Shown: positions 6,375 through 23,164 of the stretch, in pieces
How the letters are laid out: every line of letters starts with the position of its first letter
How positions within the stretch are numbered: the first letter of the stretch is position 1
DNA from: Alistipes indistinctus YIT 12060
GTDB taxonomy: Bacteria > Bacteroidota > Bacteroidia > Bacteroidales > Rikenellaceae
DNA: 64,000 nt
NCBI RefSeq assembly: GCF_025144995.1
Contig: NZ_CP102250.1
Span: 2,728,001 to 2,792,000 of the forward strand
Direction of reading: 5' to 3'
The notes under the pieces: generated by a model
What the model was told of the DNA's origin: nothing
The model's input: the letters and a program-made list of their open reading frames with translations, nothing else
Databases searched by the model: none
Position numbers and translations under genes: made by a program

Positions 6375-7145
6375 CTATCGGACTAAATGGGGAACTGATT
6401 CCCAGAGTTTAGAAAAGTAACGTAGACTTAGCCTTAATGCATTGTTTTTAATTCCGTGATTCCGGAATGCTCTCAAATGTTCTCGCATAATTGTCACTCT
6501 ATTTGCAAGGGAGGCCGTGCTGGCTCCACCTGTTCGCATGGTGACAAAATCCATGTCGAGATATTGTGTTTTTATGCGGTGAATATAAATGTAACGTAAG
6601 AGAGATTCGAAATCTGCGGCAATTTTATATTGGATATCGAACTTCCCGAATCGATCGTATACCTCTTTTTTGACGTAAAATGACGGGTGAGCCGGCATAA
6701 ACCCGAATTTCATTTTGGCTCGCGTAAATGATTTGGATGAATAATAGCGGACTGTTTTAGATAGATCGTCGGGATGAACAAAATGAATATCTCCGTATAC
6801 TCCATCTAGATATTTATCAGCAGTAAAAGCTTTCGCTACCTGATCCAAAATGTTGTTGGCAGAATAAAAATCGTCAGCATTGAGCATCCCGATAACTTGG
6901 CCGGATGCCATTGCGATGCCTTTGTTCATGGCATCGTAGATCCCTTGGTCCGGTTCACTTATCCAGTGAAGCCGGCCGTTAAAACGCGTTTCATAACTGC
7001 GCAATATATTGCGTGTCCCATCTGACGATGCACCGTCTATAACAATACATTCCCAATCCTGATAGGTTTGGGCTAATATAGACCGCAGTGTGTCCTCGAT
7101 GGTCGCGGCACTATTCCAGGCTGCTGTTATGATTGAAATCTTCAT
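6375..7145 (-). CDS. Family 2 glycosyltransferase (WcaA-like)
   Basis: A 256-residue GT-A fold transferase. It opens with the GT2 pattern ISIITAAWNSAATIEDTL and continues with QTYQDWECIVIDGASSDGT, then a region around GMLNADDFY with the acidic metal-binding residues. It would add one sugar to the lipid-linked repeat unit at the cytoplasmic membrane; donor and acceptor cannot be read from sequence. The start at 7145 is fixed by context: its ATG overlaps the TGA of a broken epimerase upstream (ATGA), a common operon junction. Base composition is more AT-rich than in fkp or the rml genes, as in the other transferases here, which suits an exchangeable part of the locus. Confidence 0.85.
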   Translation of the reverse strand: MKISIITAAWNSAATIEDTLRSILAQTYQDWECIVIDGASSDGTRNILRSYETRFNGRLHWISEPDQGIYDAMNKGIAMASGQVIGMLNADDFYSANNILDQVAKAFTADKYLDGVYGDIHFVHPDDLSKTVRYYSSKSFTRAKMKFGFMPAHPSFYVKKEVYDRFGKFDIQYKIAADFESLLRYIYIHRIKTQYLDMDFVTMRTGGASTASLANRVTIMREHLRAFRNHGIKNNALRLSLRYFSKLWESVPHLVR

Positions 7146-8913: not shown

Positions 8914-9956
8914 GTAAAAATCAAATGTTTATGAATGATGTTGACCGCCAGTAGCAGAGTGCCGATTCCGATCACCGCCATCTTGGCAGCTATTCGAGGC
9001 CGGAATGCGTACATGAACAGCGGATACAGGATAATCTCGACGACGCCCAGTAATTCGGATCCCCGATACCCGAGTAACGAGATGAATGAAAGCGCGGGAA
9101 ACAGAAAGAGGGCGATTCCTTCTATCTTAATCAATAGCGGGAAATAGGGATTGTACGTTCCGATCGTGTCACGTTTCCACAGCATGCCGTAATACAGCGC
9201 ACATCGGAACAAAAAGTACGGGTTGAATAAATTGGCGTCCGTAAACCCTTGTACGCTTTGTTCCTGAAGATGTTGATACATTTCCAGTTTGAGTCGAATG
9301 CTTTCGATGGGAATGACGGAAATATCGAACATCGTACCGTGGACTATGAATCCCAGCGGTACGATACTCCACCAGAGGTATTTGCTTTTGCTTGCAATCG
9401 GTTGGTTTTTCAACACGACTAGCGGTAATAGCAACAGTGAAGAATAATGGAAAAGCGAGGCCAGCAGAATCAAAGCCGTATAACGGAATATTTTGTGCTC
9501 GGCGAGTGGTCGGATGGCTAGCAAAAAAATACCGGACGCAACTCCGGCTCTGATTTGCGTCATGTCGTGTAGCAAGTACACGTTCGATATGTAAATGACT
9601 AACGACAGAAATAATAGTGAAGTTAGTCTCTTGATTGCGAAAATCTTGCATGTGACGCCGATGCTCGCGTAAATCACGAATAACAGGACGGGCCACGGAC
9701 AAACCGCTTTGACAAGGGAACTGATGAGGGTAAATGTGGGTTCTACCGTAGGTGTCTCTTCCGGAAATCGATACATTTCGAGATACACCTTATAGTCTCC
9801 GACCGTATTCCCGTCACGTAGTCCGGCAATTAGTACCATGGCCACTCCTACCGATGCATATAAAAATAGACACTGGCGTGTCTTTAAAGCCGGTTCTATC
9901 AGTGCTATGAAACAACAGAGCACAAACAGTATTCCAACAATACAGAGAGTATTCAC
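8910..9956 (-). CDS. wzy: Polysaccharide repeat-unit polymerase, EpsG/Wzy type membrane protein
   Basis: A 348-residue protein made almost entirely of hydrophobic segments, roughly ten predicted membrane spans. A periplasm-like loop carries AGLRDGNTVGDYKVYLEMY, a pattern typical of EpsG-family polymerases (GxRxxxxGxDxxxY). It would join repeat units after Wzx flips them. The start is a GTG at 9956, three bases after the stop of the preceding transferase. It lies between transferase genes and close to wzx, as expected in a Wzx/Wzy-dependent locus. No other polymerase candidate occurs in the operon. The call rests on topology, length, the loop motif and context, because Wzy sequences diverge strongly. 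Confidence 0.75.
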   Translation of the reverse strand: MNTLCIVGILFVLCCFIALIEPALKTRQCLFLYASVGVAMVLIAGLRDGNTVGDYKVYLEMYRFPEETPTVEPTFTLISSLVKAVCPWPVLLFVIYASIGVTCKIFAIKRLTSLLFLSLVIYISNVYLLHDMTQIRAGVASGIFLLAIRPLAEHKIFRYTALILLASLFHYSSLLLLPLVVLKNQPIASKSKYLWWSIVPLGFIVHGTMFDISVIPIESIRLKLEMYQHLQEQSVQGFTDANLFNPYFLFRCALYYGMLWKRDTIGTYNPYFPLLIKIEGIALFLFPALSFISLLGYRGSELLGVVEIILYPLFMYAFRPRIAAKMAVIGIGTLLLAVNIIHKHLIFT

Positions 9957-9959
9957 GTG

Positions 9960-11522
9960 TTAGTTTCTTCGGAAAAGGCCATATCCTTTTTTTATTCGGG
10001 AGACAATGCGCAGCAATGTCTCTTTTTTCAGGACTATTCGTATGAGCGAGGCCGTTGCTTTGGGAAATAGCCAGAGCATTTTCCCTTGGAATACGGACAC
10101 AAGTTCATACACACAGTTATGCATATATCGGTTCTCTACCTCCATATAGATAGCTGTGATCGCCTCATAGTCGATTGGAACGTGGACGAACGAAGCCGGT
10201 TGCTTCGATTGTCCGAATAGATGTGTGTGCAGCGAACGAGAGAATGCTTCGGGAGGCAGCAATCGGCTATGCAAGGCTTCACCTTCAGCTTTACGAAACG
10301 TCTTATCGCCGATCAATCTTTCTGCATAGCAACAGAATTCCTCAATGTTTCCTCGGACAATCGGCCTGTCTCCTTGAGGACCGTAGGGCAACAACTCGTC
10401 TATGTATTTGCAGGAAATGTTTTTATCCGCAAAGGCCAAGACGGGAACACTGCAATATGCGGCAAGTTGTGTCATCAACCCTCCGCCGATGGGATAAGTC
10501 GACAGGTAAATGTCGATATTCCGGAAAACATGGACGATATCGTCACGCTGACCGATCAAATGCAAACGATTCTCATAACCGTTCCGGTGGATAAATCGCC
10601 GGATAGGAGCCTCATTACCGCTTCCTGCTATATAGATAACTACTTCGGGATAGTGATTGAGTAACAATCTGAGCAATCCGAAATAGCGTTCGTTCTCGCC
10701 GTAAATTTTATAAAGCGCTCCTCCGGAAAAGATACGGACCGCACGATCGTCTGGTACCGGCGGTAACCCGCGAAATGGCTGGCATGAAATGATCGGATAA
10801 TAGTACTGCAATAACAAACGTTTAGGGTCTATTTTACGCTTTTCTGTTGAGATTGTTATTCCGAAGTTCCTGAATTCCAGGAAGTAATCGACCGAATCTC
10901 GTCCAAGCCAGAATGCATGGTCCGTTATGTTAATCAGATACCGTTCGCATTGAGATAGGGCATTGCAAACAATTAGCGGTACGACGTCCGACGGTGCAAG
11001 ATGGAGCAGTATTTTCTCTGGAACAAAAGCGATGATCTCACGGTGAATGGCACGTACGGCCTCGCTTCGTGTGAGGTGTGACGGTACACAAAATACAGTC
11101 GCTTTGTCGTTTTTTCGTAACGCATCGTTGATGTAGGCAGCCCGTCTTGCGTTGGAATACGGATTGTTGAGAATGTATAGTAACTCAATATTCCAGGTGG
11201 CGAAAGCGGTGAGGTATTGTTGCGTAAGAGCTACGTTGTCTATACCGGACGAATCATAAAACACGATCTTACCCGGCATGGGGCGAGGAGTGCCGGTCGA
11301 TTGGACAATTAATCCTCGGGATAGACTGCCGATCAGCTCCTCAAGATCGTCATCGGCATAAATTTCATTGGTTTGATATGCGATCATCGTCGCACACTCG
11401 ACGTACCGAATGGCACGGTCATATCGCGCTTTCCCGCAAGCTTTGATAGCCTGCCGCTTCACTTTATCGAAAATATTCCGTATATCGCGTTGTGTGAATT
11501 TCATGGAAAAGAAGTCATACAT
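9960..11522 (-). CDS. Large GT-B glycosyltransferase (GT4-like C-terminal lobe)
   Basis: A 520-residue protein. The C-terminal half has a GT4-like lobe: RIFSGGALYKIYGENERYF, then VVIYIAGSGNE, HLIGQRDDIVHVFRNIDIYL and PIGGGLMTQLAAYCSVPVLAF, the usual position of the donor-binding loop. The first 200 residues are poorly conserved, and about 120 extra residues follow the lobe. The start at 11522 overlaps wzx by 8 bases; a second ATG at 11504 would avoid the overlap and both are possible. The canonical EX7E motif is not obvious, so a divergent transferase is the safest description. Its place directly after wzx suggests action on the repeat unit. Confidence 0.7.
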   Translation of the reverse strand: MYDFFSMKFTQRDIRNIFDKVKRQAIKACGKARYDRAIRYVECATMIAYQTNEIYADDDLEELIGSLSRGLIVQSTGTPRPMPGKIVFYDSSGIDNVALTQQYLTAFATWNIELLYILNNPYSNARRAAYINDALRKNDKATVFCVPSHLTRSEAVRAIHREIIAFVPEKILLHLAPSDVVPLIVCNALSQCERYLINITDHAFWLGRDSVDYFLEFRNFGITISTEKRKIDPKRLLLQYYYPIISCQPFRGLPPVPDDRAVRIFSGGALYKIYGENERYFGLLRLLLNHYPEVVIYIAGSGNEAPIRRFIHRNGYENRLHLIGQRDDIVHVFRNIDIYLSTYPIGGGLMTQLAAYCSVPVLAFADKNISCKYIDELLPYGPQGDRPIVRGNIEEFCCYAERLIGDKTFRKAEGEALHSRLLPPEAFSRSLHTHLFGQSKQPASFVHVPIDYEAITAIYMEVENRYMHNCVYELVSVFQGKMLWLFPKATASLIRIVLKKETLLRIVSRIKKGYGLFRRN

Positions 11523-12813
11523 AACCTATCTTTCGTAAATAGAGATACACCACCCCCATATGAAGTAAATAGGCAGCCATACCCGCTTGTGTGACGCCGA
11601 TGATCCCGGCGCTCGTTTGCATTAGCTGGCAGGCTAATCCGATATAAATTATAGTGAACACTATTTCGGTTGTTACGTAAACCACAGTACGCGCTTTGGC
11701 AATCATCACATAGGTCAGAATATAGCAACCTATCTTGAACAGGTCGCTGCCCATTTGCCAGCCGAATAACTTGGCCATAGGTAAAAATTCCGACGTAAAC
11801 AAAATTCGGATGATTAGGAAACGGCATAGATAAACCAATACGAAACCTGTGAGCAGAAGCGGAATAATGACCTTGAATGCCTTACCGATCTCGCGCCGCA
11901 CCTCGTTCGGCTCGGTGATCTCAGAAAGGCGGGGCAGGTAATAGACGCTGAACGATGTCGTCACTACCAATAGATAAATGTTGGAGATACGGTTCATCGC
12001 TTCCCACCATCCGGCTTCGAGCTCCGACAGGTCGAGCATGATATAGCGCCGGATGAGGATCTGAGCCACCGGCATCGTCCCGATCGACACAAGGGTCATC
12101 AAAGCATATTTCAGGTAGTTGCGGATAATGCTCCGGTCGATCCTGCCGCGGAAATACGACCACCGTGCCCAGGGTTTCCGACGCACCATATAGAGCGTGA
12201 CGAAGAAGACGGCACTCTGGTAGGTCGTCGCTCCGATCAGGGCACCGGGCAGGCCGTACAGCAGAGTCAGGACGACGGCGAAGACGAGCCCGGCCAGGCT
12301 GTTCGCCACATTGATCCGGATAAACATTTTATATTCCCGGTAGCCGTTGACGATCGAAAGTAACAGCATATTGAACGCATAGAGGATGACCGTTACCCCG
12401 AAAACGATGAAAATATAGCCGTATTCGTCCGAGAGCATGATCCAGCGGCTCAATCTGCGGTGGCACGCGATCATGGCCGTGCCGCACGCGAGTGAGCAAA
12501 CGACCGTGACGAGCAGCGCATTGGTCAGTAGCGTCCGTACTTTGCCGACCGATCCCTTGTGTTCAGAGACGTATTTGACGACCCCGTTATTGATCGCTCC
12601 GCTGGCCAGGTATTGAACGATATAGACTAGATTGTTCAGTTGGCCCAACAAAGCTACACCGCCCGGTCCGATCAGTACCGCAACGACCTTGGTGCTGATC
12701 AGCCCGGTGAGCATCTTGACTAGCGTGGCTACCGATGAGAGCGAAAATACCTTGACGAGCTCGGAACGGCAAAAACGGCCGATCAGTTCTTTCAGCGCTC
12801 CGAATGGGGACAT
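11515..12813 (-). CDS. wzx: Repeat-unit flippase, Wzx (polysaccharide transporter family)
   Basis: A 432-residue membrane protein with about twelve hydrophobic spans, resembling the WzxE/O-antigen translocase branch of the MOP superfamily. It would move the undecaprenyl-diphosphate-linked repeat to the periplasmic side. The N-terminal stretch VKMLTGLISTKVVAVLIGPGGVALLGQLNN is characteristic of this branch (region about 22-51). The start is the ATG at 12813; the TTG before it is less likely. The start shares one base with the stop of the aminotransferase gene (TGATG), so the two are translationally coupled. The WzxE-like branch often handles short repeats with amino-deoxy sugars, in keeping with the 3-amino sugar pathway upstream. 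Confidence 0.88.
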   Translation of the reverse strand: MSPFGALKELIGRFCRSELVKVFSLSSVATLVKMLTGLISTKVVAVLIGPGGVALLGQLNNLVYIVQYLASGAINNGVVKYVSEHKGSVGKVRTLLTNALLVTVVCSLACGTAMIACHRRLSRWIMLSDEYGYIFIVFGVTVILYAFNMLLLSIVNGYREYKMFIRINVANSLAGLVFAVVLTLLYGLPGALIGATTYQSAVFFVTLYMVRRKPWARWSYFRGRIDRSIIRNYLKYALMTLVSIGTMPVAQILIRRYIMLDLSELEAGWWEAMNRISNIYLLVVTTSFSVYYLPRLSEITEPNEVRREIGKAFKVIIPLLLTGFVLVYLCRFLIIRILFTSEFLPMAKLFGWQMGSDLFKIGCYILTYVMIAKARTVVYVTTEIVFTIIYIGLACQLMQTSAGIIGVTQAGMAAYLLHMGVVYLYLRKIGYV

Positions 12814-13910
12814 CAAAAGGCATTGATCGTTGTGACGACATATCGGACCTCTTCATCGCTCATGACCTGGCTGATGGGCAGGCTGAGCTCCTCGTCGTGG
12901 ATCAGTTCGGTGATCGGCAGCGAGCGGTCGTTCCACGCCCGGTAGCACTCCTGCTTGTGGGGCGGGATCGGATAGTGGATGAGGGTCTGAACACCGTTCG
13001 CGGTCAGGTACTGCTGCAAGGCGTCGCGTTCGGCGCACCGTACCGGAAAGATGTGGAATACGTGTGCGTCGGGGGCCGGCACCTGAGGCAAGACGACTTT
13101 CGGATTAGTGATGTGGGTCAGATAGTGGGCAGCGATGGCTTTGCGCCGAGCGTTATCCTCGTCGAGGTGGCGGAGCTTCACGTCGAGTATGGCGGCTTCG
13201 ATTTCATCGAGTCGACTGTTGCGGCCGGTGTACCGGAAAACATATTTTTGTGTTGAGCCGTAATTGGCCAGCGCGCGCACTGTGGCGGCCAGCTCGTCGT
13301 CGTCCGTGGTTACTCCTCCGGCATCGCCCAGTGCTCCGAGGTTCTTGCCCGGGTAGAAGCTGTGCCCGGCGGCGTCGCCGAGCGATCCGGTTCGCCGGCC
13401 GCGGTAGAGGCAGCCGTGCGCCTGTGCGTTGTCTTCGACCAGTTTCAGCCCGTATTTCCGGCACAGTTGGCCGATTCTGTCCGTGTAAGCGCACTGCCCG
13501 TAAAGGTGGACTATCAGAATAGCCCGGGTACGGGGAGTGATGGCGGCTTCGATGCGTGTATCATCGATCTGGTAAGTCTGTAAGTCTGGTTCGACAAGCA
13601 CCGGGACGAGTCCGTTCTCAGTGATCGCGAGAATAGAGGCGATGTAGGTGTTCGCTGGGACAATTACTTCGTCGCCGGGTTGGAGTACACCCATTTCGAG
13701 GTAGGCGCGGAAGATCCAGACTAGTGCATCGAGCCCGTTGGCAACGCCGATCGCGTGACGCGTCCCGATGTAGCGGGCGTAGTTGGCTTCAAACTGCGCG
13801 TTCTCTGTTCCCTGAAGGTACCAGCCAGAACGAATGACACGCTCCACAGCCTCACGGATATCCGCGCCATGGCTTTCGGTTACTTTCTGTAAATCGAGAA
13901 ATTTGATCAT
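12813..13910 (-). CDS. fdtB: dTDP-3-keto-6-deoxyhexose 3-aminotransferase (FdtB/QdtB-like)
   Basis: A 365-residue PLP enzyme of the DegT/DnrJ/EryC1 family. It would transfer an amino group to C3 of the dTDP-3-keto-6-deoxy sugar made by the FdtA-type isomerase. Key sites are [14 protein letters not shown] (78-91), VEDNAQAHG (158-166, with the PLP-contacting Asp160) and the Schiff-base lysine Lys189 in [16 protein letters not shown]. The N-terminal FLDL and the GTENAQFE region match FdtB/QdtB rather than 4-aminotransferases. It lies 12 bases after the acyltransferase gene and is coupled to wzx. Whether the product is Fuc3N or Qui3N depends on the isomerase and cannot be settled here. Confidence 0.88.
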
Positions 13911-13922
13911 CGCTTATTTGTG

Positions 13923-14585
13923 TTAATCCTCGCGGACGCGTTTCATAAATTTGGCGGGTGTCCCGACGTGAATTTCGTAGTCTGGAATATTGTGCGTGAC
14001 TAGACTTCCAGCTCCGGCCACGGCGAAGTCGCCGATTTTGACTTTTTCGATCACTTTGGCACCGAGTGTAACGTCGGAGCAAAGGCCGATAGTGATGTAC
14101 GAGCTGGTGATCGAGCCGACCGAGAAATGGCAAAGCGGTCCGACTGTCGTGTTGTGTCCTACCAACGAGTTGGCCATCATCAGCGAACACTGGCCGAGCC
14201 GCGCCTGGGCCCCGACGTAGCAGTTCGACATGACGAAGACGCCCGGTTCGAGTACGGCGCTGTCGGCCACGAATGCGGTTTTGTGGACGATCGTGGCGAA
14301 TCGCTCGCGCGGAATGTTCACTTTGCGAAAGGTTTTTTCGGTCAGTATGTTGCGGCCGATCATGTGGATGCCCCACATGAAATGGTAGTCCGGATTTTTG
14401 AGCAGTTCCTGCACGTCGTCCGTCCCGCCGAGCACGGGATAACCGCAGACCTGTGTTTCGTAGTCGTTGACGAAGCCGGCCACCTCCCACTCGAGGTCGC
14501 CGAACCGTTTGCGGTTGTCTTCGATACAGGCAGCGATCACGCCTCCGTTGCCTTCGCCGCCGATGATGATTACTTTTTTATTCAT
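13923..14585 (-). CDS. NeuD/PglD-family sugar N-acyltransferase
   Basis: A 220-residue protein with an N-terminal Rossmann-like PglD_N domain (KKVIIIGGEGNGGVIAACIED, about residues 3-23) and a C-terminal left-handed beta-helix of hexapeptide repeats. The helix reads VLEPGVFVMSN, ARLGQCSLM, LVGHNTTVGPLCHFSVGS and so on, ending in GTPAKFMKR. The presumed catalytic base is the His in LVGHNTTVG. Members acylate the amino group of nucleotide-linked amino sugars with acetyl-CoA or other acyl-CoAs. It lies 7 bases after the LUD gene and 12 before fdtB, so it most likely acylates the 3-amino group. The acyl donor may not be acetyl-CoA, given the CoA-related enzymes just upstream. Confidence 0.82.
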   Translation of the reverse strand: MNKKVIIIGGEGNGGVIAACIEDNRKRFGDLEWEVAGFVNDYETQVCGYPVLGGTDDVQELLKNPDYHFMWGIHMIGRNILTEKTFRKVNIPRERFATIVHKTAFVADSAVLEPGVFVMSNCYVGAQARLGQCSLMMANSLVGHNTTVGPLCHFSVGSITSSYITIGLCSDVTLGAKVIEKVKIGDFAVAGAGSLVTHNIPDYEIHVGTPAKFMKRVRED

Positions 14586-14591
14586 AATAAG

Positions 14592-15377
14592 TTATAGACC
14601 AAGATTGTCGTTTACGACCAGCAGATGTGTCCGGTCGGCATTGAATTCGACTTCGCCGCGCATGATGGCGATTTTCCGACATGCACTGCGCGGATGGACG
14701 CAGTCGAAGCATTTGCCTTTCTGAACACAAGGTAGTTCGTCATATCGGTTATGGTGTTTGTTGATGTGCCGGATGTAATTCAGCGGTGCTGCCACATTGC
14801 GGATACGTTTGAGGGCTTCGTCGAGATCCAGACAGATTTTATTGGCGCCGACTACGATAATGACGTGCTTGGGGCCGAACATCATGCCTGCCACTCGGTT
14901 GCCGCTTCCGTCGATTGACACGATCTCCCCTTTCAGCGTTATGGCGTTCGCGCCGATGATTAGGACATCCGAGAGTAGAGTTTGCCGCATTGCTTCTACC
15001 ACAGTACCCATTCTGCGGTAGTATTCGTCTCGGGGCAAGTCGAGCTTTCCGGTAGGTTGATCCTCAAATATTTTGTATTTGCCGTCAGGAGTGCGCTCGA
15101 AAGGGTTGATGATCCGGTGATCGGGTCCTCCGAATTGTTCAGCCACCTGACGGTACACATCGCATTCGTGCAATGAAACGCTGTCGCTGAAAGCGATTGT
15201 GCGGAGGTTACGTTGGTGGATGAAGCTGGTGATGAACGGCGCGACATCGTGTTTGTCTGTGACGGGGTGAAAGTTGATCCTGCGTGCCCCGAAAGTTTTC
15301 TCCATCAGTGTGCACTGATGGAGAAAATGCGTATGGCGCTCTTGTGCGAGATTTCGTTCGTCGATTTTATCAATCAT
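14592..15377 (-). CDS. Stand-alone LUD-domain protein with a C-terminal cysteine cluster
   Basis: A 261-residue cytoplasmic protein of the LUD (DUF162, LutC/YkgG-related) superfamily. The core shows DVLIIGANAITLKGEIVSID (about 137-156), MMFGPKHVIIVVGANKI (165-181) and RIRNVAAPLNYIRH. A cluster of four cysteines (217, 223, 226, 233) in CxxxxxCxxCxxxxxxC spacing is typical of the stand-alone LUD group and could bind a metal or Fe-S centre. The biochemical role of these stand-alone proteins is not settled; relatives act with lactate-oxidising complexes. The gene overlaps the CitE-like gene by 8 bases and is followed closely by the acyltransferase. Such a protein is unexpected in a sugar operon, and I cannot assign its reaction. 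Confidence 0.85.
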   Translation of the reverse strand: MIDKIDERNLAQERHTHFLHQCTLMEKTFGARRINFHPVTDKHDVAPFITSFIHQRNLRTIAFSDSVSLHECDVYRQVAEQFGGPDHRIINPFERTPDGKYKIFEDQPTGKLDLPRDEYYRRMGTVVEAMRQTLLSDVLIIGANAITLKGEIVSIDGSGNRVAGMMFGPKHVIIVVGANKICLDLDEALKRIRNVAAPLNYIRHINKHHNRYDELPCVQKGKCFDCVHPRSACRKIAIMRGEVEFNADRTHLLVVNDNLGL

Positions 15378-16272
15378 GGTTTGTCGTCGTTTTTGTTTGA
15401 CCGATCATGGCATGTTTGCTAAGAATGGTTTGCGCCATCTTGACCATCGGCGGACCGATAAACTTGTTGTCTTTGAGCGCCACTCCTTTGCCTTCACGCT
15501 CGGCTTCCTCGGCCAGCGCGAGCATCTCTTCGGCCCAAGCTACCTCGTCCTCGCCGGGCGAGTAGTAACGATGGCAGAGCGGTAACTCTTTGGGATTGAG
15601 GACGAGCATTCCTTCAAATCCGAGTTTTTTAGAAAGAACTAGATTATGTTCAAGGTCTTCGAGATCATGAACATGGATATGTACCGTGTCAATCGGAACC
15701 ACCCCGCACGCTTTAGCACCCATAGCGATCTGGGCCCGGGCCGTGAAAATGCTCTGTCCCTCGGGATCGTGTTTGCCGCCGAGGTCGGTGACGAAATCTT
15801 CGCAGCCGAAAGCGACTGCCGTAACACGGTTCGGGCAGGCGTTGCAGATCTCCTGGATGTTCATGACTGCGCCCGTTGTTTCGATCAGTGGAATGATCTT
15901 GAAGGTCCCGATCGGGAAACCCTTTTCATACTCGATCGTTTCGAGCAGCTTGCCGAAGAAATAAATGTCTTCTCCTTTCTTGCTTTTGGGGTACATGAAT
16001 CCGGTGATCCCCTCGACGGTCAGTTGGTATACGTCGCGCAGCAGCTCGCCGCTTTCTCGGTCGTTGACGCGGGGATAGAGTACGCGCCCGCGGAACGTGC
16101 CGTCGGCAATGTATCGCAGAATGTTGTCGCGGGCTACCTGTTTGTTTGAGGCCGGCTGAACCGAGTCTTCGATGTCGAGCAGCAGCACGTCGGCGTTGAC
16201 GCGTGCCGCACTGTTCATCAACCGATCGTTATGGGCCGGGACGAACATCAGGCTTCGGAATAAATGGTCCAT
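15370..16272 (-). CDS. CitE-like CoA-ester lyase (HpcH/HpaI aldolase family)
   Basis: A 300-residue TIM-barrel enzyme related to citrate lyase beta subunit and malyl-/citramalyl-CoA lyases. Metal and substrate residues are visible: LLLDIEDSVQP (Asp33, Glu35, Asp36), YPRVND (Arg68, likely CoA or carboxylate contact), IPLIETTGAV (Glu131) and CEDFVTDLGG (Glu158, Asp159, Asp163). Such enzymes split or form 3-hydroxyacyl-CoA thioesters from acetyl- or propionyl-CoA and an oxo-acid. No citrate lyase alpha or gamma genes are nearby, so citrate fermentation is unlikely. It lies 2 bases after the MaoC-like gene and overlaps the LUD gene. I infer that it works with MaoC to make or process a hydroxyacyl-CoA used by the acyltransferase. 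Confidence 0.87.
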   Translation of the reverse strand: MDHLFRSLMFVPAHNDRLMNSAARVNADVLLLDIEDSVQPASNKQVARDNILRYIADGTFRGRVLYPRVNDRESGELLRDVYQLTVEGITGFMYPKSKKGEDIYFFGKLLETIEYEKGFPIGTFKIIPLIETTGAVMNIQEICNACPNRVTAVAFGCEDFVTDLGGKHDPEGQSIFTARAQIAMGAKACGVVPIDTVHIHVHDLEDLEHNLVLSKKLGFEGMLVLNPKELPLCHRYYSPGEDEVAWAEEMLALAEEAEREGKGVALKDNKFIGPPMVKMAQTILSKHAMIGQTKTTTNHD

Positions 16273-16274
16273 GA

Positions 16275-16733
16275 TTATGCTTGTTTTTTGACGAGAACGT
16301 GACGGCGGAAACTGATCACTGCTTCATCATGTTGGTTATAGCCTACGGTTTCGACATGAACGATTCCCCGGTCGGGTTTAGACTTCGATTCTCGTTTATC
16401 GAGGACGATGGTTTTTGCGTACAGTGTATCGTTGATAAATACCGGTCTGAGATGTTTGATATCTTCATATCCCAGATTGGCAATCGCTTTACCGCTGATA
16501 TCGGGAACAGTCATGCCGACAACAAGTGAAAAGACCAGTGTACCGACGACTAGGAGCTGGCCATGCTGGTTCTTGCGTGCATAGTCCAGATTGGTGTGTA
16601 CCGGATGGTGGTTCATCGTGAGCAGGCTGAAGAAATTGTTATCGCTTTCGAAAACGGTTTTGGAAAGAGCATGCTCGACGGTCTCACCGACGACGAATTC
16701 GTCGAAGTAGAGTCCGAGTTTACTTGGTTTCAT
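16275..16733 (-). CDS. MaoC-like acyl-CoA (de)hydratase
   Basis: A 152-residue hot-dog-fold protein of the MaoC/mesaconyl-CoA hydratase type. The hydratase motif MNHHPVHTNLDYAR (40-53) keeps Asn41, His46 and Asp50, which in the family bind and activate water across a CoA-linked double bond. The N-terminus GLYFDEFVVGETVEHALSKTV (7-27 region) matches the mesaconyl-CoA hydratase branch. I chose the ATG at 16733; another at 16766 adds 11 residues without homology. Either start overlaps the upstream ketoisomerase gene, so translation is coupled. The gene ends 2 bases before the CitE-like gene. Pairing with a CitE-like lyase recalls mesaconyl-CoA/methylmalyl-CoA chemistry, but the substrate here is unknown. 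Confidence 0.85.
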   Translation of the reverse strand: MKPSKLGLYFDEFVVGETVEHALSKTVFESDNNFFSLLTMNHHPVHTNLDYARKNQHGQLLVVGTLVFSLVVGMTVPDISGKAIANLGYEDIKHLRPVFINDTLYAKTIVLDKRESKSKPDRGIVHVETVGYNQHDEAVISFRRHVLVKKQA

Positions 16734-17142
16734 GGCGGGTGTAATTGATGAATGATGCATAATCACGGATATAGTCGGCCTCGTCGTAAATGTGCGAGGT
16801 TAGTACCAGGCAGATCGAACCCGAAGAAAAGCCTTGCTCGGCAGCCCAGATACCCGGCGGGATGTGCAAACCGAAGTAAGGCCGATTAAGCGTGACGGTC
16901 CGTTTGTTGTACCCGTCATCGAGCACGACCTCGAAGCTACCGCTCGCCGCAACCAGGAACTGATGGCATTCGCGATGGGCATGCGCTCCGCGAGCCTCAC
17001 CTCCAGGGATGTCGTACAAATAGAAAATCCGGGCGATCTCGAACGGCAGGTTAATCCCACTGTGTACTGGTGTAATGTTCCCTTTTGCGTTCTCTATGCG
17101 CGGCAGTTCGATCACCGAACAATCATACACAGATTTCAGCAT
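16720..17142 (-). CDS. fdtA: dTDP-4-keto-6-deoxyglucose 3,4-ketoisomerase (FdtA/QdtA-like), copy 1
   Basis: A 140-residue cupin of the WxcM/FdtA family. It moves the keto group of dTDP-4-keto-6-deoxyglucose from C4 to C3, giving the substrate of the 3-aminotransferase. The core RGAHAHRECHQFLVAASGS (51-69) carries Arg51, His54 and His56, which match the active-site Arg and His pair of FdtA. The PYFGLHIPPGIWA strand follows. The stop lies inside the MaoC-like gene, so these genes are coupled. It is one of two paralogues; the other, at 17974-18378, lacks the second His. FdtA (galacto) and QdtA (gluco) differ by a few residues, so the stereochemical outcome is not assigned. Confidence 0.88.
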   Translation of the reverse strand: MLKSVYDCSVIELPRIENAKGNITPVHSGINLPFEIARIFYLYDIPGGEARGAHAHRECHQFLVAASGSFEVVLDDGYNKRTVTLNRPYFGLHIPPGIWAAEQGFSSGSICLVLTSHIYDEADYIRDYASFINYTRHETK

Positions 17143-17146
17143 GATA

Positions 17147-17990
17147 TTATGTAAGTTTGCGTTTTAACCATCGGGTTATGGGGCGTTCGATCCATTTCAG
17201 GCAAGCCACACTGCTAGCGTGGTAAGCACGAGAAAAACGAGTAGGGCCGGTAGGTTGTCCGTGTCGAGACTGGCTTTGGCGGCAAAGGTACGTCCGACCA
17301 GAATGGCTTGTTAATGAATTAGATAAAAACAAAAACTGGCTTTCCTGAACAATTGTACGGCACGACAGGACAACCCTTGTGAGAAGATGCCTCCCGTCCG
17401 GTTTTGTAGCGGCTTACGCCGTTTGCGGGGCTCCCGTTGATTTGGGTAATACGCAATGCGTTTCTCGTGATGCAGGTGGTGTTTGGTGGAGTGTAAATTA
17501 CTTATAACGAACTAATTGTGAACATGTATAGCTGTTTAACAAAACGGGTAGGACGAACGGGAACATCAGGTAGAAAAACAATTCGTCCGATCAAAACCAT
17601 GATACGGCATTGTATGACATATAGTAGTCGGACAGCGGAACCCAGCTTTGCAAAAGGAGCAGGTTCAGAGCCGCTTTGGGTAGGTCTGTCATGGCAAAAG
17701 AGCGAATACCTAGCAGAAATATTGCAGCGAAACACAAAAGATGAAGCGGATATAGCTTGACCACTCTGGCTTTCCAAAAATCACATGTTGTCATTTCCCG
17801 GGTCAGCAAACGTTTTTTTATAGTCGTAAGCGAGTAGAAGCCAGCTCAGTATGAAAAAAAACGTTACTCCGATCACACCTCCTGCCTGCAAGGCCGATTT
17901 ACCGTCGATCAGATAATGGTGCAAAAAAAAATCACGACAGCGAAAACGTATCGCCATCCGGTCAATGAGCGGATCATCGGCATCCTTCAA
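17147..17990 (-). pseudogene. Broken acyltransferase-3 family (O-acetyltransferase-like) gene
   Basis: Minus-strand translation in three frames gives, in order: ALQAGGVIGVTFFFILSW (near 17880), FWKARVVKLYPLHLLCF with NLLLLQSWVP and YNAVSWF (17591-17809), then LFFYLMFPFVLPVLLN (about 17530-17590). After a gap with no recognisable content, KWIERPITRWLKRKL follows near 17150-17200. These are the N-terminal half and extreme C-terminus of a membrane O-acyltransferase (OafA/acyltransferase 3). At least two frameshifts and loss of roughly half the gene make it non-functional. The first ATG lies inside the upstream ketoisomerase gene. An ancestral polysaccharide from this locus was probably O-acylated by this enzyme. 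Confidence 0.8.
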
Positions 17991-18378
17991 TTATGAATTG
18001 ATCGAAGTCGCGGATATAATCTTTAGAGTCGTAGGTAGTCGATGAGAGAATGAGTGCCAGTGCATTGGTCGAAAAATTTTCGAGCATGCGCCACGTCATT
18101 TTTGGAATATAAAGTCCATAATACGAACGGTTCAGACTGAATCGCTGTTCCTGCTTGCCGTCGTGCAGGACAACGTCGAAACTTCCGCTGAGGGCAATGA
18201 CCAGTTCCTCGTTTTCACGATATGCATGTCCGCCTCGGACTTCGCCTCCCGGGACATCGTAAATCCAGTATGTTCTGTGAATTTCGAAAGGCACATGGCG
18301 CTTCTCTTCAATGAAAGAGAGGTTTCCGCGTTTGTCAAGTATTTTCGGCAGGTTGATGATCTTCGCTGCGTGGGTCAT
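17974..18378 (-). CDS. FdtA/QdtA-like sugar 3,4-ketoisomerase, copy 2
   Basis: A 134-residue WxcM-like cupin, clearly related to the copy at 16720-17142. It has FEIHRTYWIYDVPGGEVRGGHAYRENEE (residues 31-58), with Arg48 and His51, but Tyr53 where copy 1 has the second active-site His. SLNRSYYGLYIP follows. It lies 13 bases after the rmlB stop and would act on the same dTDP-4-keto-6-deoxyglucose. Two different isomerases in one operon may make 3-keto sugars of different C4 stereochemistry, or one may help the other. Its reading frame is intact, though it is followed by the broken acyltransferase. Family membership is clear; catalytic role is less so because of the His-to-Tyr change. Confidence 0.8.
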   Translation of the reverse strand: MTHAAKIINLPKILDKRGNLSFIEEKRHVPFEIHRTYWIYDVPGGEVRGGHAYRENEELVIALSGSFDVVLHDGKQEQRFSLNRSYYGLYIPKMTWRMLENFSTNALALILSSTTYDSKDYIRDFDQFIIEGCR

Positions 18379-18391
18379 AATTCAAATTGTT

Positions 18392-19507
18392 TCACCGGTT
18401 TTCGTACATTTCGGAGTAATATTTTTGGTATTGACCGGATGTAACGTTATCGATCCATTTTTGGTTATCGAGGTACCAACGGACGGTTTTTTCGATGCCT
18501 TCTTCGAACTGGAGTGTCGGTTCCCATCCGAGTTCGTTTTTGAGTTTGGAGGAGTCTATAGCGTATCGCAGGTCGTGTCCGGCCCTGTCTGTGACGTAGG
18601 TAATCAGTTTTTCGCTGGTCCCTTCCGGCCTGCCCAGGAGTCGGTCGACGGTTTTGATGACGACCTTTATCAGGTCGATGTTCTTCCATTCGTTGAAGCC
18701 TCCGATGTTGTATGTACCGGCAATTTTACCTTCGTGGAAAATGAGGTCTATGGCCCTTGCGTGGTCCTCGACATACAGCCAGTCGCGTACGTTTTCACCT
18801 TTACCGTATACGGGCAGGGGCTTGTTGTGCCGGATGTTGTTGATGAACAGCGGGATCAGCTTTTCGGGAAACTGGAACGGCCCGTAGTTGTTCGAGCAGT
18901 TGGTGACGAGGGTGGGCATTCCGTACGTGTCGTGGAATGCCCTGACGAAGTGGTCCGAAGAGGCTTTGCTGGCCGAATACGGGCTGTGCGGGTCGTATTT
19001 TGTCGTTTCGGTGAAGAACTCCTCGCCGTAGGGTCCGCCTCCGCATTCGTTTCCGTCGGGTTCACCGTGGGGTTTTGTGAGCTCGAGTGCCCCGTAGACT
19101 TCGTCGGTGGATATGTGGTAAAATCGCTTTCCCTGGTAATCTCCGTTCCAGAACTCTTTTGCCGCCTGGAGCAGGGAGAGGGTTCCCATTACATTTGTCC
19201 GTGCGAAGGTGAAAGGATCCTTGATCGACCGGTCGACATGGCTTTCCGCTGCGAGGTGTATGACCCCGTCGATTCGGTATGTCCGGAAGGTTTCCAGCAT
19301 CTTCTCGAAGTCGCAGATGTCCGCCTTTACGAAGGTGTAGTTCGGCGCGTTCTCGATGTCCGCCAGGTTTGCGAGGTTTCCGGCATAGGTCAGTTTGTCG
19401 AGGTTGACGATTCGGTATTGGGGATATTTGTTGACCAGCAGCCGTACTACATGGCTGCCGATAAAACCGGCTCCGCCGGTGACGAGTAAATTGCGTTGGA
19501 AGGTCAT
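18392..19507 (-). CDS. rmlB: dTDP-glucose 4,6-dehydratase (RmlB)
   Basis: A 371-residue extended SDR enzyme that turns dTDP-glucose into dTDP-4-keto-6-deoxyglucose, the branch point for rhamnose and 3-amino-3,6-dideoxy sugars. Seen are NLLVTGGAGFIGSHVVR at the N-terminus, the RmlB-typical HLAAESHVDRSI, the catalytic SPYSASKASSDHFV (YxxxK) and NNYGPFQFPEKLIP. I start at the ATG at 19507; a TTG two codons earlier is less likely. It lies 12 bases after rmlD and 13 before the second ketoisomerase. Length is slightly above the usual 350 because of an insertion near ELTKPHGEPDGNECGGGPYGEE, common in Bacteroidales RmlB proteins. Confidence 0.95.
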   Translation of the reverse strand: MTFQRNLLVTGGAGFIGSHVVRLLVNKYPQYRIVNLDKLTYAGNLANLADIENAPNYTFVKADICDFEKMLETFRTYRIDGVIHLAAESHVDRSIKDPFTFARTNVMGTLSLLQAAKEFWNGDYQGKRFYHISTDEVYGALELTKPHGEPDGNECGGGPYGEEFFTETTKYDPHSPYSASKASSDHFVRAFHDTYGMPTLVTNCSNNYGPFQFPEKLIPLFINNIRHNKPLPVYGKGENVRDWLYVEDHARAIDLIFHEGKIAGTYNIGGFNEWKNIDLIKVVIKTVDRLLGRPEGTSEKLITYVTDRAGHDLRYAIDSSKLKNELGWEPTLQFEEGIEKTVRWYLDNQKWIDNVTSGQYQKYYSEMYENR

Positions 19508-19519
19508 ATGCAAGGAGAG

Positions 19520-20761
19520 TTAGATTGCCGTGCCGGCCGTTTGCGCCCCCAGGCGTTCGAGACATCGCTCGAGCGCATCGCGCCAGTAGGGTATCGTTAG
19601 GTTGAAAGTCTCTTTGATTTTGGTTTTGTCGAGCACGGAATAGCGGGGCCTTTCGACAGGGGAGGGGAACTCTTCGGAGTGGCAGGGTATCACCCGTGCG
19701 GGGTCGAGCCCTGCCAGTACCGCGATTTCGTGAGCGAAGTCGTACCAGGAGCATACCCCTTCGTTGGAAAAGTGGTAAGTCCCTTCGTTTCCCCGGTATG
19801 CCCCCGAGGAGATCATGCGGTGTATGGCCCCGGCGAGGTCTGCGGCGTACGTGGGCGTTCCCGCCTGGTCGAAGACCACTTTTACCCGGGGCGTCTGGGC
19901 CGTTAGCCGGAGCATGGTCTTGACGAAGTTGTTTCCGAACTCGGAGTAGAGCCATGCGGTACGCAGGATCAGTGCGGCACAGCCGGCTTCGGCGATGGCC
20001 TTCTCCCCGGCGAGCTTCGTGCGTCCGTATACGCCCAGCGGCCTTACGGGATCGTCCTCGCGGCGGGGGACGTTTCCGTCCCCTCCGAAGACGTAATCGG
20101 TGGAGATGTGGATCAGCGTGGCTCCCCGTTCCCGGGCTGCGGCAGCGAGGTTCGCCACTGCGCGGTGGTTGAGCAGGTCCGCCGTGGCTTCGTCCTCTTC
20201 GGCTTTGTTGACGTTGGTGTATGCGGCGCAGTTGACGATCACCTCCACGTCGTTCTCGCGCATCGTGCGCCGCACGGCTTGGGGATCGGTGATGTCCAGC
20301 TCGGCGACGTCGGTGAACAGGTAGCGGACGTTGCCCGGAGCGGTTGCTGCCGCCGGGGCTGTTGTCGCATCTGTCGCCGCGATCCTGCGCATTTCGTTGC
20401 CCAGCTGCCCGTTGGCTCCTGTGACGAGCACGGTTATGGCTGCGGTGCGCCTGCCGGTTCCGGGGAGCGTTGCGCTTCCCGCCGTAGCTGTGGGGGGCGT
20501 TGTCGCCGGGGCTGTTGTCGCATCTGTCGCCGCGATCCTGCGCATTTCGTTGCCCAGCTGCCCGTTGGCTCCTGTGACGAGCACGGTTATGGCTGCGGTG
20601 CGCCTGCCGGTTCCGGGGAGCGTTGCGCTTCCCGCCGTAGCTGTGGGGGGCGTTGTCGCCGGGGCTGTTTTTGCAGCAGTTGCCGCTGTGTCCGGCGCTG
20701 CGCCTGCGGTTTTCTCCGCCGTTGCGGGGGCCTGTGCCGCCGCCGTTTTATCGTTGGGCAT
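19520..20761 (-). CDS. rmlD: dTDP-4-dehydrorhamnose reductase (RmlD) with duplicated nucleotide-binding motif
   Basis: RmlD reduces dTDP-4-keto-L-rhamnose to dTDP-L-rhamnose. The body is normal: FTDVAELDITD, NCAAYTNVNKAE, HISTDYVFGGDG and the catalytic VYGRTKLAGE (YxxxK). From the ATG at 20761 the product is 413 residues, over 100 more than the usual 285-300. The excess is an Ala/Thr/Pro-rich leader in which the cofactor motif VLVTGANGQLGNEMRRIAA occurs twice, 51 residues apart, because of an exact DNA duplication. A GTG at 20431-20429, just before the second motif, would give a normal-sized protein of about 303 residues, so the true start is uncertain. The ATG start overlaps rmlC by 14 bases. 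Confidence 0.85.
   Translation of the reverse strand: MPNDKTAAAQAPATAEKTAGAAPDTAATAAKTAPATTPPTATAGSATLPGTGRRTAAITVLVTGANGQLGNEMRRIAATDATTAPATTPPTATAGSATLPGTGRRTAAITVLVTGANGQLGNEMRRIAATDATTAPAAATAPGNVRYLFTDVAELDITDPQAVRRTMRENDVEVIVNCAAYTNVNKAEEDEATADLLNHRAVANLAAAARERGATLIHISTDYVFGGDGNVPRREDDPVRPLGVYGRTKLAGEKAIAEAGCAALILRTAWLYSEFGNNFVKTMLRLTAQTPRVKVVFDQAGTPTYAADLAGAIHRMISSGAYRGNEGTYHFSNEGVCSWYDFAHEIAVLAGLDPARVIPCHSEEFPSPVERPRYSVLDKTKIKETFNLTIPYWRDALERCLERLGAQTAGTAI
20352..20669. repeat. Exact 153-bp in-frame tandem duplication within rmlD
   Basis: Unit 1 (20352-20504) and unit 2 (20505-20657) are identical base for base as far as I can compare by eye, and the first 12 bases of the unit recur at 20658-20669. 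The period of 153 is 51 codons, so the reading frame is kept. Each unit encodes the GxxGxxG cofactor-binding motif of RmlD plus a Thr/Ala/Pro-rich linker. Perfect identity suggests a recent event, or an assembly or culture variant. Confidence 0.92.
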
Positions 20762-21326
20762 AGTAATCCGTGTTATAGTCGAACAGTTCGGGCGCCTCAT
20801 CCAGTCGCGGATGGCGGCTGTCCTTTTCCGAGAGGAGCACGTCTGCGGGGTCGAGCCGCCAGTCGATACCGATCTGCGGGTCGTTCCAGGCGATCGCCCC
20901 TTCGCTCTGCGGCGCGTAAGGCGCATCGCACTTGTACTGGAAAAGCGCGCGGGGGCTCAGTACGGCGAAGCCGTGCGCGAAGCCGCGGGGGATGAACAGC
21001 TGGCGGTGGTTCTCTCCCGAAAGCTCGACGGCCACGTACCGTCCGAATGTGGGGGATCCGCGGCGGATGTCCACGGCCACGTCCAGTACGGCACCTTCCA
21101 CGACGCGCACCAATTTCCCCTGTGCATGTTCTCCGCGCTGGAAATGGAGCCCCCGCAGCACGCCGTATGAGGATCGCGATTCGTTGTCCTGTACGAAGCG
21201 GACCGGCCGGACCGATTTGTCGAACAATTGCCGTGAGTAGCTTTCAAAAAAGTATCCCCGCGCATCGCGGTGCAGTTCGGGCTCGAGGATCACGACCCCT
21301 TCGAGCGCAGTTTCGATAACTTTCAT
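20748..21326 (-). CDS. rmlC: dTDP-4-dehydrorhamnose 3,5-epimerase (RmlC)
   Basis: A 192-residue cupin that inverts C3 and C5 of dTDP-4-keto-6-deoxyglucose. Family features are the N-terminal MKVIETALEGVVILEPELH, DARGYFFESYSRQLFD, GVLRGLHFQ (the His of the catalytic pair), KLVRVVEGAVLDVAVDIR and the IPRGFAHGFAVLSP strand. Length is normal. The start is the ATG at 21326; an upstream in-frame extension to 21632 is Arg/Pro-rich and unrelated. The end overlaps the long form of rmlD. A GC-rich hairpin at 21419-21445 stands between rmlA and rmlC and could tune their relative expression. Confidence 0.94.
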   Translation of the reverse strand: MKVIETALEGVVILEPELHRDARGYFFESYSRQLFDKSVRPVRFVQDNESRSSYGVLRGLHFQRGEHAQGKLVRVVEGAVLDVAVDIRRGSPTFGRYVAVELSGENHRQLFIPRGFAHGFAVLSPRALFQYKCDAPYAPQSEGAIAWNDPQIGIDWRLDPADVLLSEKDSRHPRLDEAPELFDYNTDYYAQR

Positions 21327-21418
21327 AAAGACGAACCCCTCGTTTATATTTTGGGTTTTGGTGTAGAAGAGTGTTTGGCAGATGTTCCGGATTCGCCCGG
21401 GGCTCCTGCCGGATCGCT

Positions 21419-21445
21419 TCGCAGCCCGACAAGACCGGGCTGCGA
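21419..21445 (-). other. GC-rich hairpin in the rmlA-rmlC spacer
   Basis: Two perfect 10-base arms (21419-21428 and 21436-21445) flank the 7-base loop ACAAGAC. No U-tract follows on the minus strand, so it is more likely an mRNA-stability or pause hairpin than a full terminator. The surrounding spacer (21327-21493) holds no gene. Confidence 0.4.
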
Positions 21446-21493
21446 CGGACGGACGATGGCAGGGCGGAGATGCGTCTTGATCCCGTTTCCCGG

Positions 21494-22387
21494 TCAGCGC
21501 CCGTCGCGGGCGACCTCTGCGATCACTTTGAGCAGGTATTGTCCGTACTGGTTTTTGAGCATGGGTTCGGCCGCCTCGCGCAGTTTCCCTTCGGAGATCC
21601 AGCCGTTGCGGTAGGCGATACCCTCGAGGCATGCGATCTTGAGCCCCTGCCGCTTTTCGAGCACCTCGACGAAGATGGATGCCTCCGAGAGCGAATCGTG
21701 CGTTCCGGTGTCGAGCCAGGCGAAGCCGCGTCCGAGGGTCTGCACCTTGAGCGCACCCTCGGCGAGGAACCGCTGGTTCACCGAGGTGATCTCCAGCTCT
21801 CCGCGTGCGGAGGGTTTAATCGATTTGGCCACGGAGACCACCTCGTTCGGGTAGAAGTATAGCCCGACCACGGCATAGTTCGACTTCGGCTCTGCGGGCT
21901 TCTCCTCGATGGAGAGGCAGTTTCCCCGGCGGTCGAACTCCGCCACGCCGTACCGCTGGGGATCGTCGACCCAGTATCCGAATACGGTTGCCTTTTTTTC
22001 CGCTTCGGCGGTGCGTACTGCCCCTGCCAGCAGCTCGGAGAATCCGGCCCCCTGGAAGATGTTGTCCCCGAGTACGAGGCATACGGCATCGTCGCCGATA
22101 AATTCCTCGCCGATCAGGAACGCCTGCGCGAGCCCGTCGGGCGACGGCTGTTCGGCATAAGAGAGATGTACCCCATAATCGGATCCGTCGCCCAGCAGCC
22201 GCCGGAAAGAGGGCAGGTCACAGGGGGTGGAGATCACCAGGATCTCCCGGATTCCGGCCAGCATCAAAACCGACAGCGGATAGTAGATCATCGGCTTGTC
22301 GTAGATCGGGAGCAACTGCTTGGAAACTCCCTTCGTGATCGGGTACAGCCGCGTACCAGAACCCCCAGCCAATACAATGCCTTTCAT
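21494..22387 (-). CDS. rmlA: Glucose-1-phosphate thymidylyltransferase (RmlA)
   Basis: A 297-residue nucleotidyltransferase that makes dTDP-glucose from dTTP and glucose 1-phosphate, the entry step for all dTDP-sugars of this locus. The N-terminus has [20 protein letters not shown] and [17 protein letters not shown], followed by [14 protein letters not shown] and the product-site stretch [11 protein letters not shown], all typical of RmlA. Length is standard. The ATG at 22387 opens directly on the family N-terminus. It is the first enzyme gene after upxY, separated from it by 255 bases. Order rmlA-rmlC-rmlD-rmlB is kept. Confidence 0.95.
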
Positions 22388-22642: not shown

Positions 22643-23164
22643 TCAGATTTTCTCCAGGAAATTGCCCGGAATGTATACGGTGGCCAGTGCCGCTACATCC
22701 TGCAGCCGGATGACCACTCTTTTATGTCCTTTGATACGGATCAACTCTCCTTCGATACCTTTGAACTGCCCCTCCGTCACGCGCACCCGGTCGCCGGGAC
22801 GTAGATCGGGGGAGACGAACTCGATCTGATCTTCGCAATGGCTGAGCAGGAAGATGAAGTCCTCCATCTGTTTGTCGGGCACAACGAGCAGCGAACGGGT
22901 CTCGCGATTACGCAGGTATCGCATTTCGAAACCGTAATCGTTGACTAATGCGATACTGCCGCGGAAATCGTAACGGATAAAAATGATTCCATTGACAATC
23001 GGTTCTTCAACGGCAACCCTCCGTGCCCCGAACTGTTTAACGACTTTGTGAAACGGGATGAAATGTTCGATGCCGAGGATTTCGAGGCGCTCTTTGATTT
23101 TTCTTTCCCGGCGGAATGTTTTCGCTACGTACCAGTGCAGTTCGGTCTGGGGGCTATCTGTCAT
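22643..23164 (-). CDS. upxY: UpxY-type NusG-like transcription antiterminator
   Basis: A 173-residue NusG paralogue of the kind that heads capsule loci in Bacteroidales. It rides with RNA polymerase and prevents early termination in its own long operon. The N-terminal NGN domain shows HWYVAKTFRRERKIKERLE and HFIPFHKVVKQFG, and PIVNGIIFIRYD. The C-terminal KOW domain holds RPGDRVRVTEGQFKGIEGEL (about 124-143) and ends with the UpxY-like VYIPGNFLEKI. It is first in the operon, 126 bases from the proposed promoter. No UpxZ-like partner was found nearby. Confidence 0.9.
   Translation of the reverse strand: MTDSPQTELHWYVAKTFRRERKIKERLEILGIEHFIPFHKVVKQFGARRVAVEEPIVNGIIFIRYDFRGSIALVNDYGFEMRYLRNRETRSLLVVPDKQMEDFIFLLSHCEDQIEFVSPDLRPGDRVRVTEGQFKGIEGELIRIKGHKRVVIRLQDVAALATVYIPGNFLEKI

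Follow-up and report, generated by a model that had tools for sequence, protein, structure and literature searches.

The pathway formed by FdtA, FdtB and FdtC yields deoxythymidine diphosphate (dTDP)-Fuc3NAc, and RipA, the first member of the RipABC system for itaconate degradation, is a coenzyme A (CoA) transferase. LUD proteins (DUF162, PF02589) occur as LutC or stand alone, and we know of no stand-alone member with a demonstrated reaction. Lactate is the substrate to which LUD proteins have been tied, and LUD domains have been reported as over-abundant in gut microbiomes (PMC3924224). FrhB-type proteins pose a related question, their genes having been reported to show an unexplained link to lipopolysaccharide and exopolysaccharide (LPS/EPS) loci (PMC10267222). 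Here we describe a stand-alone LUD protein of 261 aa (14592..15377, minus strand) in the window, a stretch of 64,000 nucleotides from the genome of Alistipes indistinctus YIT 12060 (contig NZ_CP102250.1, 2,728,001 to 2,792,000). Its membership in a cassette of nucleotide-sugar and acyl-CoA genes is well supported. We propose, at a probability of roughly 0.4, that it serves as one of the enzymes in a mobile cassette for nucleotide-sugar N-acylation, where it would tailor the acyl group by a redox step.

A slot shared by LUD and an FrhB-type gene

A search with the CitE-like protein encoded next to LUD showed that the genome carries a second such cassette, located at 2.04 Mb (G000:C1 2036749-2046664; locus L048). 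From rmlA to the 3' end of the CitE-like gene, the two cassettes are identical at 6973 of 6975 bases. Homology breaks off at 15413 and picks up again at 14585, and the slot thus delimited (14586..15412, minus strand) holds LUD in the window and an FrhB-type gene in the second cassette (L048 10725-11892). LUD alone is replaced, by an unrelated protein with 4Fe-4S and FrhB_FdhB matches. On the far side of the slot, the NeuD-like genes agree at 654 of 663 bases (98.6%), and the aminotransferase genes are 98-100% identical over their first 700 nt, then at 72-78 positions per 100 nt and at 58 of the last 98. Upstream of rmlA, blastn finds no match and a forced alignment gives 45% identity. The near-identical block (12813-22387 in the window) is thus set between unrelated upstream sequence and different downstream genes, a sign of recent copying between two polysaccharide loci; the cassette is a mobile gene set.

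The FrhB-type frame of the second cassette is broken into 300 aa and an 84-aa piece, and may therefore represent a pseudogene or an assembly error. An intact FrhB protein of 393 aa fills the slot in G885, a genome of the window's family, and a LUD remnant with stops occupies it in genome G426. Over the five FdtA-type cassettes examined, the slot accordingly carries LUD twice, FrhB twice (one of them broken) and a decayed LUD once. The idea that the NeuD-like gene moves together with the slot gene, prompted by the lower identity of NeuD (65-66%) than of CitE (80%) in G885, was set aside as weak: MaoC (68%) and FdtA1 (58%) of G885 are likewise diverged, and in the second cassette FrhB is accompanied by a LUD-type NeuD.

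Scanning genome_contigs with the window LUD returned one relative, in Bacteroides timonensis (75% identity over residues 1-261). FdtA1, MaoC, CitE, LUD, NeuD and the aminotransferase follow there in the same order (77, 80, 73, 75, 85 and 72% identity by blastp), FdtA2 (70%) lies farther upstream, and the genes flanking the cassette differ from those of the window. This conservation of the cassette in two genomes of different families supports the link between LUD and sugar decoration put forward in a preliminary description of the window. Across the phylum, the protein matched 2 of 395 genomes, its own and one with a distant stand-alone LUD. Within the family to which the window's genome belongs, a match was obtained for 32 of 101 genomes, its own included; the others were distant LUD proteins aligned mainly with residues 122-261, and a single decayed copy adjacent to the G426 cassette. 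Plasmid searches returned 20 records with LUD and 496 with CitE, all below 60% identity, and a scan of viral_contigs for further LUD rows yielded 19 stretches with no relative among them.

The decay of LUD in G426 and its replacement in two cassettes could also mean that LUD is a passenger, a stand-alone gene of unrelated function without effect on the glycan, as might the stand-alone LUD genes without sugar link at 30 other loci (see below). We consider this improbable, given that LUD (75%) and its neighbors (72-85%) have been retained together in two genomes of different families, with reading frames that overlap or touch in both.

The LUD protein and its relatives

The LUD open reading frame (ORF) starts with ATG, and its product matches the PF02589 LUD_dom profile far beyond chance (E=1.9e-23; 83.6 bits against a cut-off of 22.6). 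Cysteines occupy positions 22, 72, 182, 217, 223, 226 and 233, the last four forming a C-x5-C-x2-C-x6-C cluster near the C-terminus (codons of residues 217-233 at 14679..14729, minus strand). The preliminary description had reported this LUD gene with its Cys217/223/226/233 cluster and an 8-base overlap with the CitE-like gene, all of which we recover: the CitE-like gene ends at 15370 and LUD begins at 15377. Its view of the cysteine cluster as a distinctive feature did not hold. In an alignment of 35 LUD rows (the window, B. timonensis, three plasmids and 30 loci from other genomes), the four cysteines are invariant in 35/35 and therefore mark this LUD subfamily, not this locus. Seventeen further columns are invariant between the window LUD and the other stand-alone proteins, at an identity of about 25-35% for all rows except B. 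timonensis. Nor is the exact overlap kept, the B. timonensis CitE (9120-10001) and LUD (10001-10789) genes sharing 1 base; the conserved part is the gene order and close packing of the two.

A general tie of stand-alone LUD genes to sugar loci, also anticipated earlier, found no support in a neighborhood survey of the 30 other LUD loci (flanks of about 1.5 kb per side, 125 neighboring ORFs). No CitE, MaoC, FdtA, DegT or Rml homolog adjoined LUD in these loci at a blastp threshold of 1e-5, the only matches to the window's sugar locus being two weak hexapeptide proteins, and the 25 listed of the 53 neighboring Pfam families include no glycosyltransferase or sugar-nucleotide family. A LUD protein from a Salipiger plasmid (48% identity over 132 residues) has its gene end 6 bases ahead of one for an MmgE/PrpD protein (L004 9659-11770). 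The MmgE/PrpD family includes branched-carboxylate hydro-lyases, and the Salipiger protein is possibly another LUD tied to branched-carboxylate-type acids. It groups with the cassette pair in our tree (support 97/89), a placement at which long branches meet and on which we do not rely.

Lactate oxidation was rejected as the setting of the window LUD. This is the sole LUD-domain match in its genome, which leaves LUD without a LutB partner in the operon or elsewhere in the genome and separates it from LutABC systems; the genome's CCG matches fall in ORFs 594 and 631 aa long that are located at 1.46 Mb, away from LUD. A sequence search of the PDB with LUD alone gave no match, and the LUD profile gave weak matches only, to designed and unrelated proteins, the known LutC structure not being among them.

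The acyl-CoA genes and the step proposed for LUD

The genes preceding LUD on the minus strand are, in order, a NusG-like gene (22643-23164), rmlA, rmlC, rmlD and rmlB (18392..22387), FdtA2 (17974..18378; WxcM-like family, PF05523 2.5e-51), FdtA1 (16720..17142; WxcM-like ketoisomerase family, PF05523 1.9e-51), a MaoC-family gene (16275..16766) and the CitE-like gene (15370..16272; HpcH_HpaI, PF03328 2.8e-38). The four ORFs that we take to be the rml genes for dTDP-6-deoxyhexose precursors have homologs in the same order in locus L052. After LUD come a NeuD/PglD-like hexapeptide acyltransferase (13923..14585; PF17836 and Hexapep; 143.6 bits with the NeuD_NnaD model TIGR03570 for NeuD/PglB/VioB acyltransferases, below the NCBIfam cut-off of 160.8), a DegT-family sugar aminotransferase (12813..13910; PF01041 9.6e-104) and a Polysacc_synt (Wzx-like) gene, followed on the same strand by a gene whose product matches a glycosyltransferase model below threshold, one gene of the EpsG family and two of the glycosyltransferase-2 family.

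The MaoC protein is nearest to mesaconyl/itaconyl-CoA hydratases (PF19315 2.3e-19), scoring 70.2 bits with the Pfam mesaconyl-CoA hydratase model against 61.5 with the general MaoC model; its best NCBIfam model, RipB/Ich (2.1e-44), stays below cut-off at 151.5 of 340 bits. Asn52 and His57 align with the Asn and His in domain 2 of 4e3e and 8hgn (beta-methylmalyl-CoA dehydratase) and are retained in 11/11 distinct MaoC copies. The CitE-like protein is matched by RipC, again below cut-off (99.6 of 375 bits). By alignment, it has the Arg and the Mg-site acids (R68, E131, D159, E35/D36) of the malyl-CoA lyase reference, namely Arg76, Glu141, Asp168 and Glu44/Asp45 (PMC3832036). The lid Asp (Asp299/Asp318 in that reference), described as conserved throughout the CitE-like superfamily except for a Glu in the thioesterase group and presumed to handle the enolate proton (PMC3832036), is replaced by Gly273; Gly is found in 12/12 glycan-locus copies versus Asp in 3/3 outgroup copies. 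Either a different residue substitutes or the reaction is not the same.

These two genes occur more widely than LUD-type cassettes. CitE searches matched 10 of 395 genomes of the class, the cassette type being confined to the window's own; 3 of 250 genomes of its family, all of cassette type; and 14 of 399 genomes of a second family of the order, seven of them at 69-76%. In each of these seven loci the MaoC-CitE pair has an acyltransferase as its neighbor. Six of these acyltransferases are NeuD-like/hexapeptide proteins (five recognized by Pfam, that of L072 only by blastp), and the one in L074 is of the Antibiotic_NAT type. At least six of the loci have aminotransferase, rml or further sugar genes in the vicinity, and neither LUD nor FrhB was matched at E 1e-4 within the 17 kb examined. 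The remaining seven matches are at 28-31%, and the three examined (L076-L078) have no sugar-locus homolog beside CitE. An acyltransferase adjoins MaoC-CitE or stands one slot off in 12/12 copies. MaoC-CitE plus an N-acyltransferase, found without LUD or FrhB in the seven loci, thus form the core module, with LUD or FrhB as a swappable accessory of the FdtA-type cassette. In L070, the gene for an ATP-grasp protein (11267-12478) adjoins those for the aminotransferase, the NeuD-like protein and MaoC-CitE, and perhaps adds a further step of acyl or amino-acid tailoring in the non-FdtA loci.

The presence of FdtA-family proteins (PF05523 twice) and a DegT transaminase (PF01041) in one operon presumably indicates a dTDP-3-amino-3,6-dideoxyhexose. 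From family knowledge, RmlA and RmlB would lead to dTDP-4-keto-6-deoxyglucose, FdtA would convert this into the 3-keto isomer, transamination by the DegT protein would yield the 3-amino sugar, and the NeuD-like transferase would place an acyl group from CoA onto the 3-amino group. The MaoC and CitE-like pair would supply the acyl-CoA ester, in which the acyl group is most likely either a C4-C5 hydroxy-dicarboxylyl (malyl/citramalyl) or an enoyl (fumaryl/mesaconyl/itaconyl) group. Amino sugars that bear N-linked 4-malyl groups are known (PMC3210612). On chemical grounds, a 4-malyl amide would be the expected product of thioester transfer from malyl-CoA. LUD might then modify the acyl group ahead of transfer, probably by an iron-sulfur (Fe-S)-dependent oxidation or reduction at its 2-hydroxy/2-oxo-acid end, and in the alternative allele the FrhB-type Fe-S protein would perform an equivalent or other redox step. 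The identity of the acyl group and the reaction of LUD are the most tentative parts of this scheme. Redox tailoring is suggested by the invariant cysteines, the exchange with an Fe-S protein and the lactate-like free end (HOOC-CHOH-) of the predicted substrate. Of the chemistries raised in the preliminary description, a redox step is consistent with the FrhB/4Fe-4S protein that replaces LUD at the same position, and a CoA-linked step with the MaoC and CitE neighbors; the chemistry of LUD itself is predicted in both cases.

The same neighbors could point to a different role. Their resemblance to RipB and RipC suggests that LUD may be a CoA-transferase-like protein loading the acid on CoA or unloading it, comparable to RipA beside RipB and RipC or to CitF, the acyl-transferase partner of CitE (PMC3832036). 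We regard this as unlikely, the RipB and RipC models being below their cut-offs, FrhB, the other occupant of the slot, being without such a fold, and any LUD being absent from the seven MaoC-CitE loci. We also know of no role of invariant cysteines in CoA transferases. Alternatively, the substrate of LUD and FrhB may be the sugar and not the acyl group, for instance in a redox reaction at a dTDP-keto-sugar, since both are found in sugar-nucleotide operons and FrhB-type genes co-localize with LPS/EPS genes in gut strains (PMC10267222). This appears very unlikely: the rml, FdtA and DegT genes would by family knowledge already form a complete amino-sugar route, and the slot sits between the acyl-CoA genes and the acyltransferase.

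Several points weigh against redox tailoring of the acyl group by LUD. The reaction is predicted from context; the LUD/FrhB exchange rests on one intact FrhB example, G885; and LUD and FrhB share no homology and do not necessarily carry out the same step. LutC has the ISOCOT fold, a point in favor of the CoA-transferase alternative. The absence of LUD and FrhB from 7/12 MaoC-CitE loci and the loss of LUD in G426 indicate that the step is dispensable, and without the lid Asp plain lyase/synthase chemistry of the CitE-like protein is doubtful. An AlphaFold model of LUD from two sequences had a mean pLDDT (predicted local distance difference test) of 42.4, too low for placing the cysteines in space. 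A more specific form of the redox proposal, which we think somewhat improbable as it stands, would have LUD and FrhB-type Fe-S proteins as interchangeable oxidoreductases for a CoA-bound hydroxy-/enoyl-dicarboxylic acid made by a new MaoC/CitE branch with a CitE lacking the lid Asp, the product being an undescribed N-acyl group on a 3-amino-3,6-dideoxyhexose. If true, this would give LUD an anabolic, non-lactate reaction and glycan-locus FrhB proteins their first role.

Other features of the cassette were noted. The conserved segment reads His-Ala-His in FdtA1 and His-Ala-Tyr in FdtA2, with the same split in B. timonensis. The conserved His residues of FdtA carry catalytic weight, and the two proteins may perform different steps. 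Between the two genes (17232-17977, minus strand) lies a decayed Acyl_transf_3-type gene, pieces of which are 64% and 50% identical to an intact 354-aa protein of L051; an ORF of 275 aa occupies this position in B. timonensis. At the start of the rmlD frame (20351-20686), both cassettes of the genome contain a 183-base stretch twice, the copies being about 97% alike and offset by 153 bases, which gives rmlD two copies of its N-terminal coding segment.

Comparison with known systems

The window LUD shares the LUD domain and the four cysteines with LutC and stand-alone LUD proteins and differs from them in lying in a sugar cassette rather than a LutABC operon. The likeness to RipABC itaconate degradation consists in a MaoC protein nearest RipB/Ich, a CitE-like protein matched by RipC and a third protein from a family with the ISOCOT fold; the window cassette, however, has no RipA and is part of a glycan operon with a sugar N-acyltransferase. 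With the FdtA/FdtB/FdtC route it has the FdtA and DegT families in common; it differs in its two FdtA proteins, its NeuD-like acyltransferase and the added MaoC, CitE and LUD genes, and FdtC was not identified. In Flavobacterium psychrophilum, O-polysaccharide loci are alike except for predicted N-acyl R-group genes, with an antigenic effect (PMC6519341). The R-group there is 3,5-dihydroxyhexanoyl, unlike the group proposed here, and the text of that report makes no mention of WxcM, a hydratase, citrate lyase or an aldolase. FrhB-type (K00441) genes of gut LPS/EPS clusters belong to the family that fills the LUD slot in two cassettes; as far as the report goes, it describes co-localization only and no exchange with LUD (PMC10267222). 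A listing-level survey of the open-access literature found no account of LUD or MaoC-CitE in a glycan locus.

We thus read the locus as a sugar N-acylation cassette whose acyl branch is uncommon and in which LUD and FrhB can be exchanged in one slot. The MaoC-CitE subfamily with its altered CitE active site may make acyl donors for surface glycans, which makes it relevant to how gut-type capsules vary antigenically. A long block is nearly identical between the two loci of this genome, which differ there in this one gene. The natural one-gene exchange makes the roles of LUD and FrhB directly testable, and two orphan protein families thereby gain a role open to experiment.
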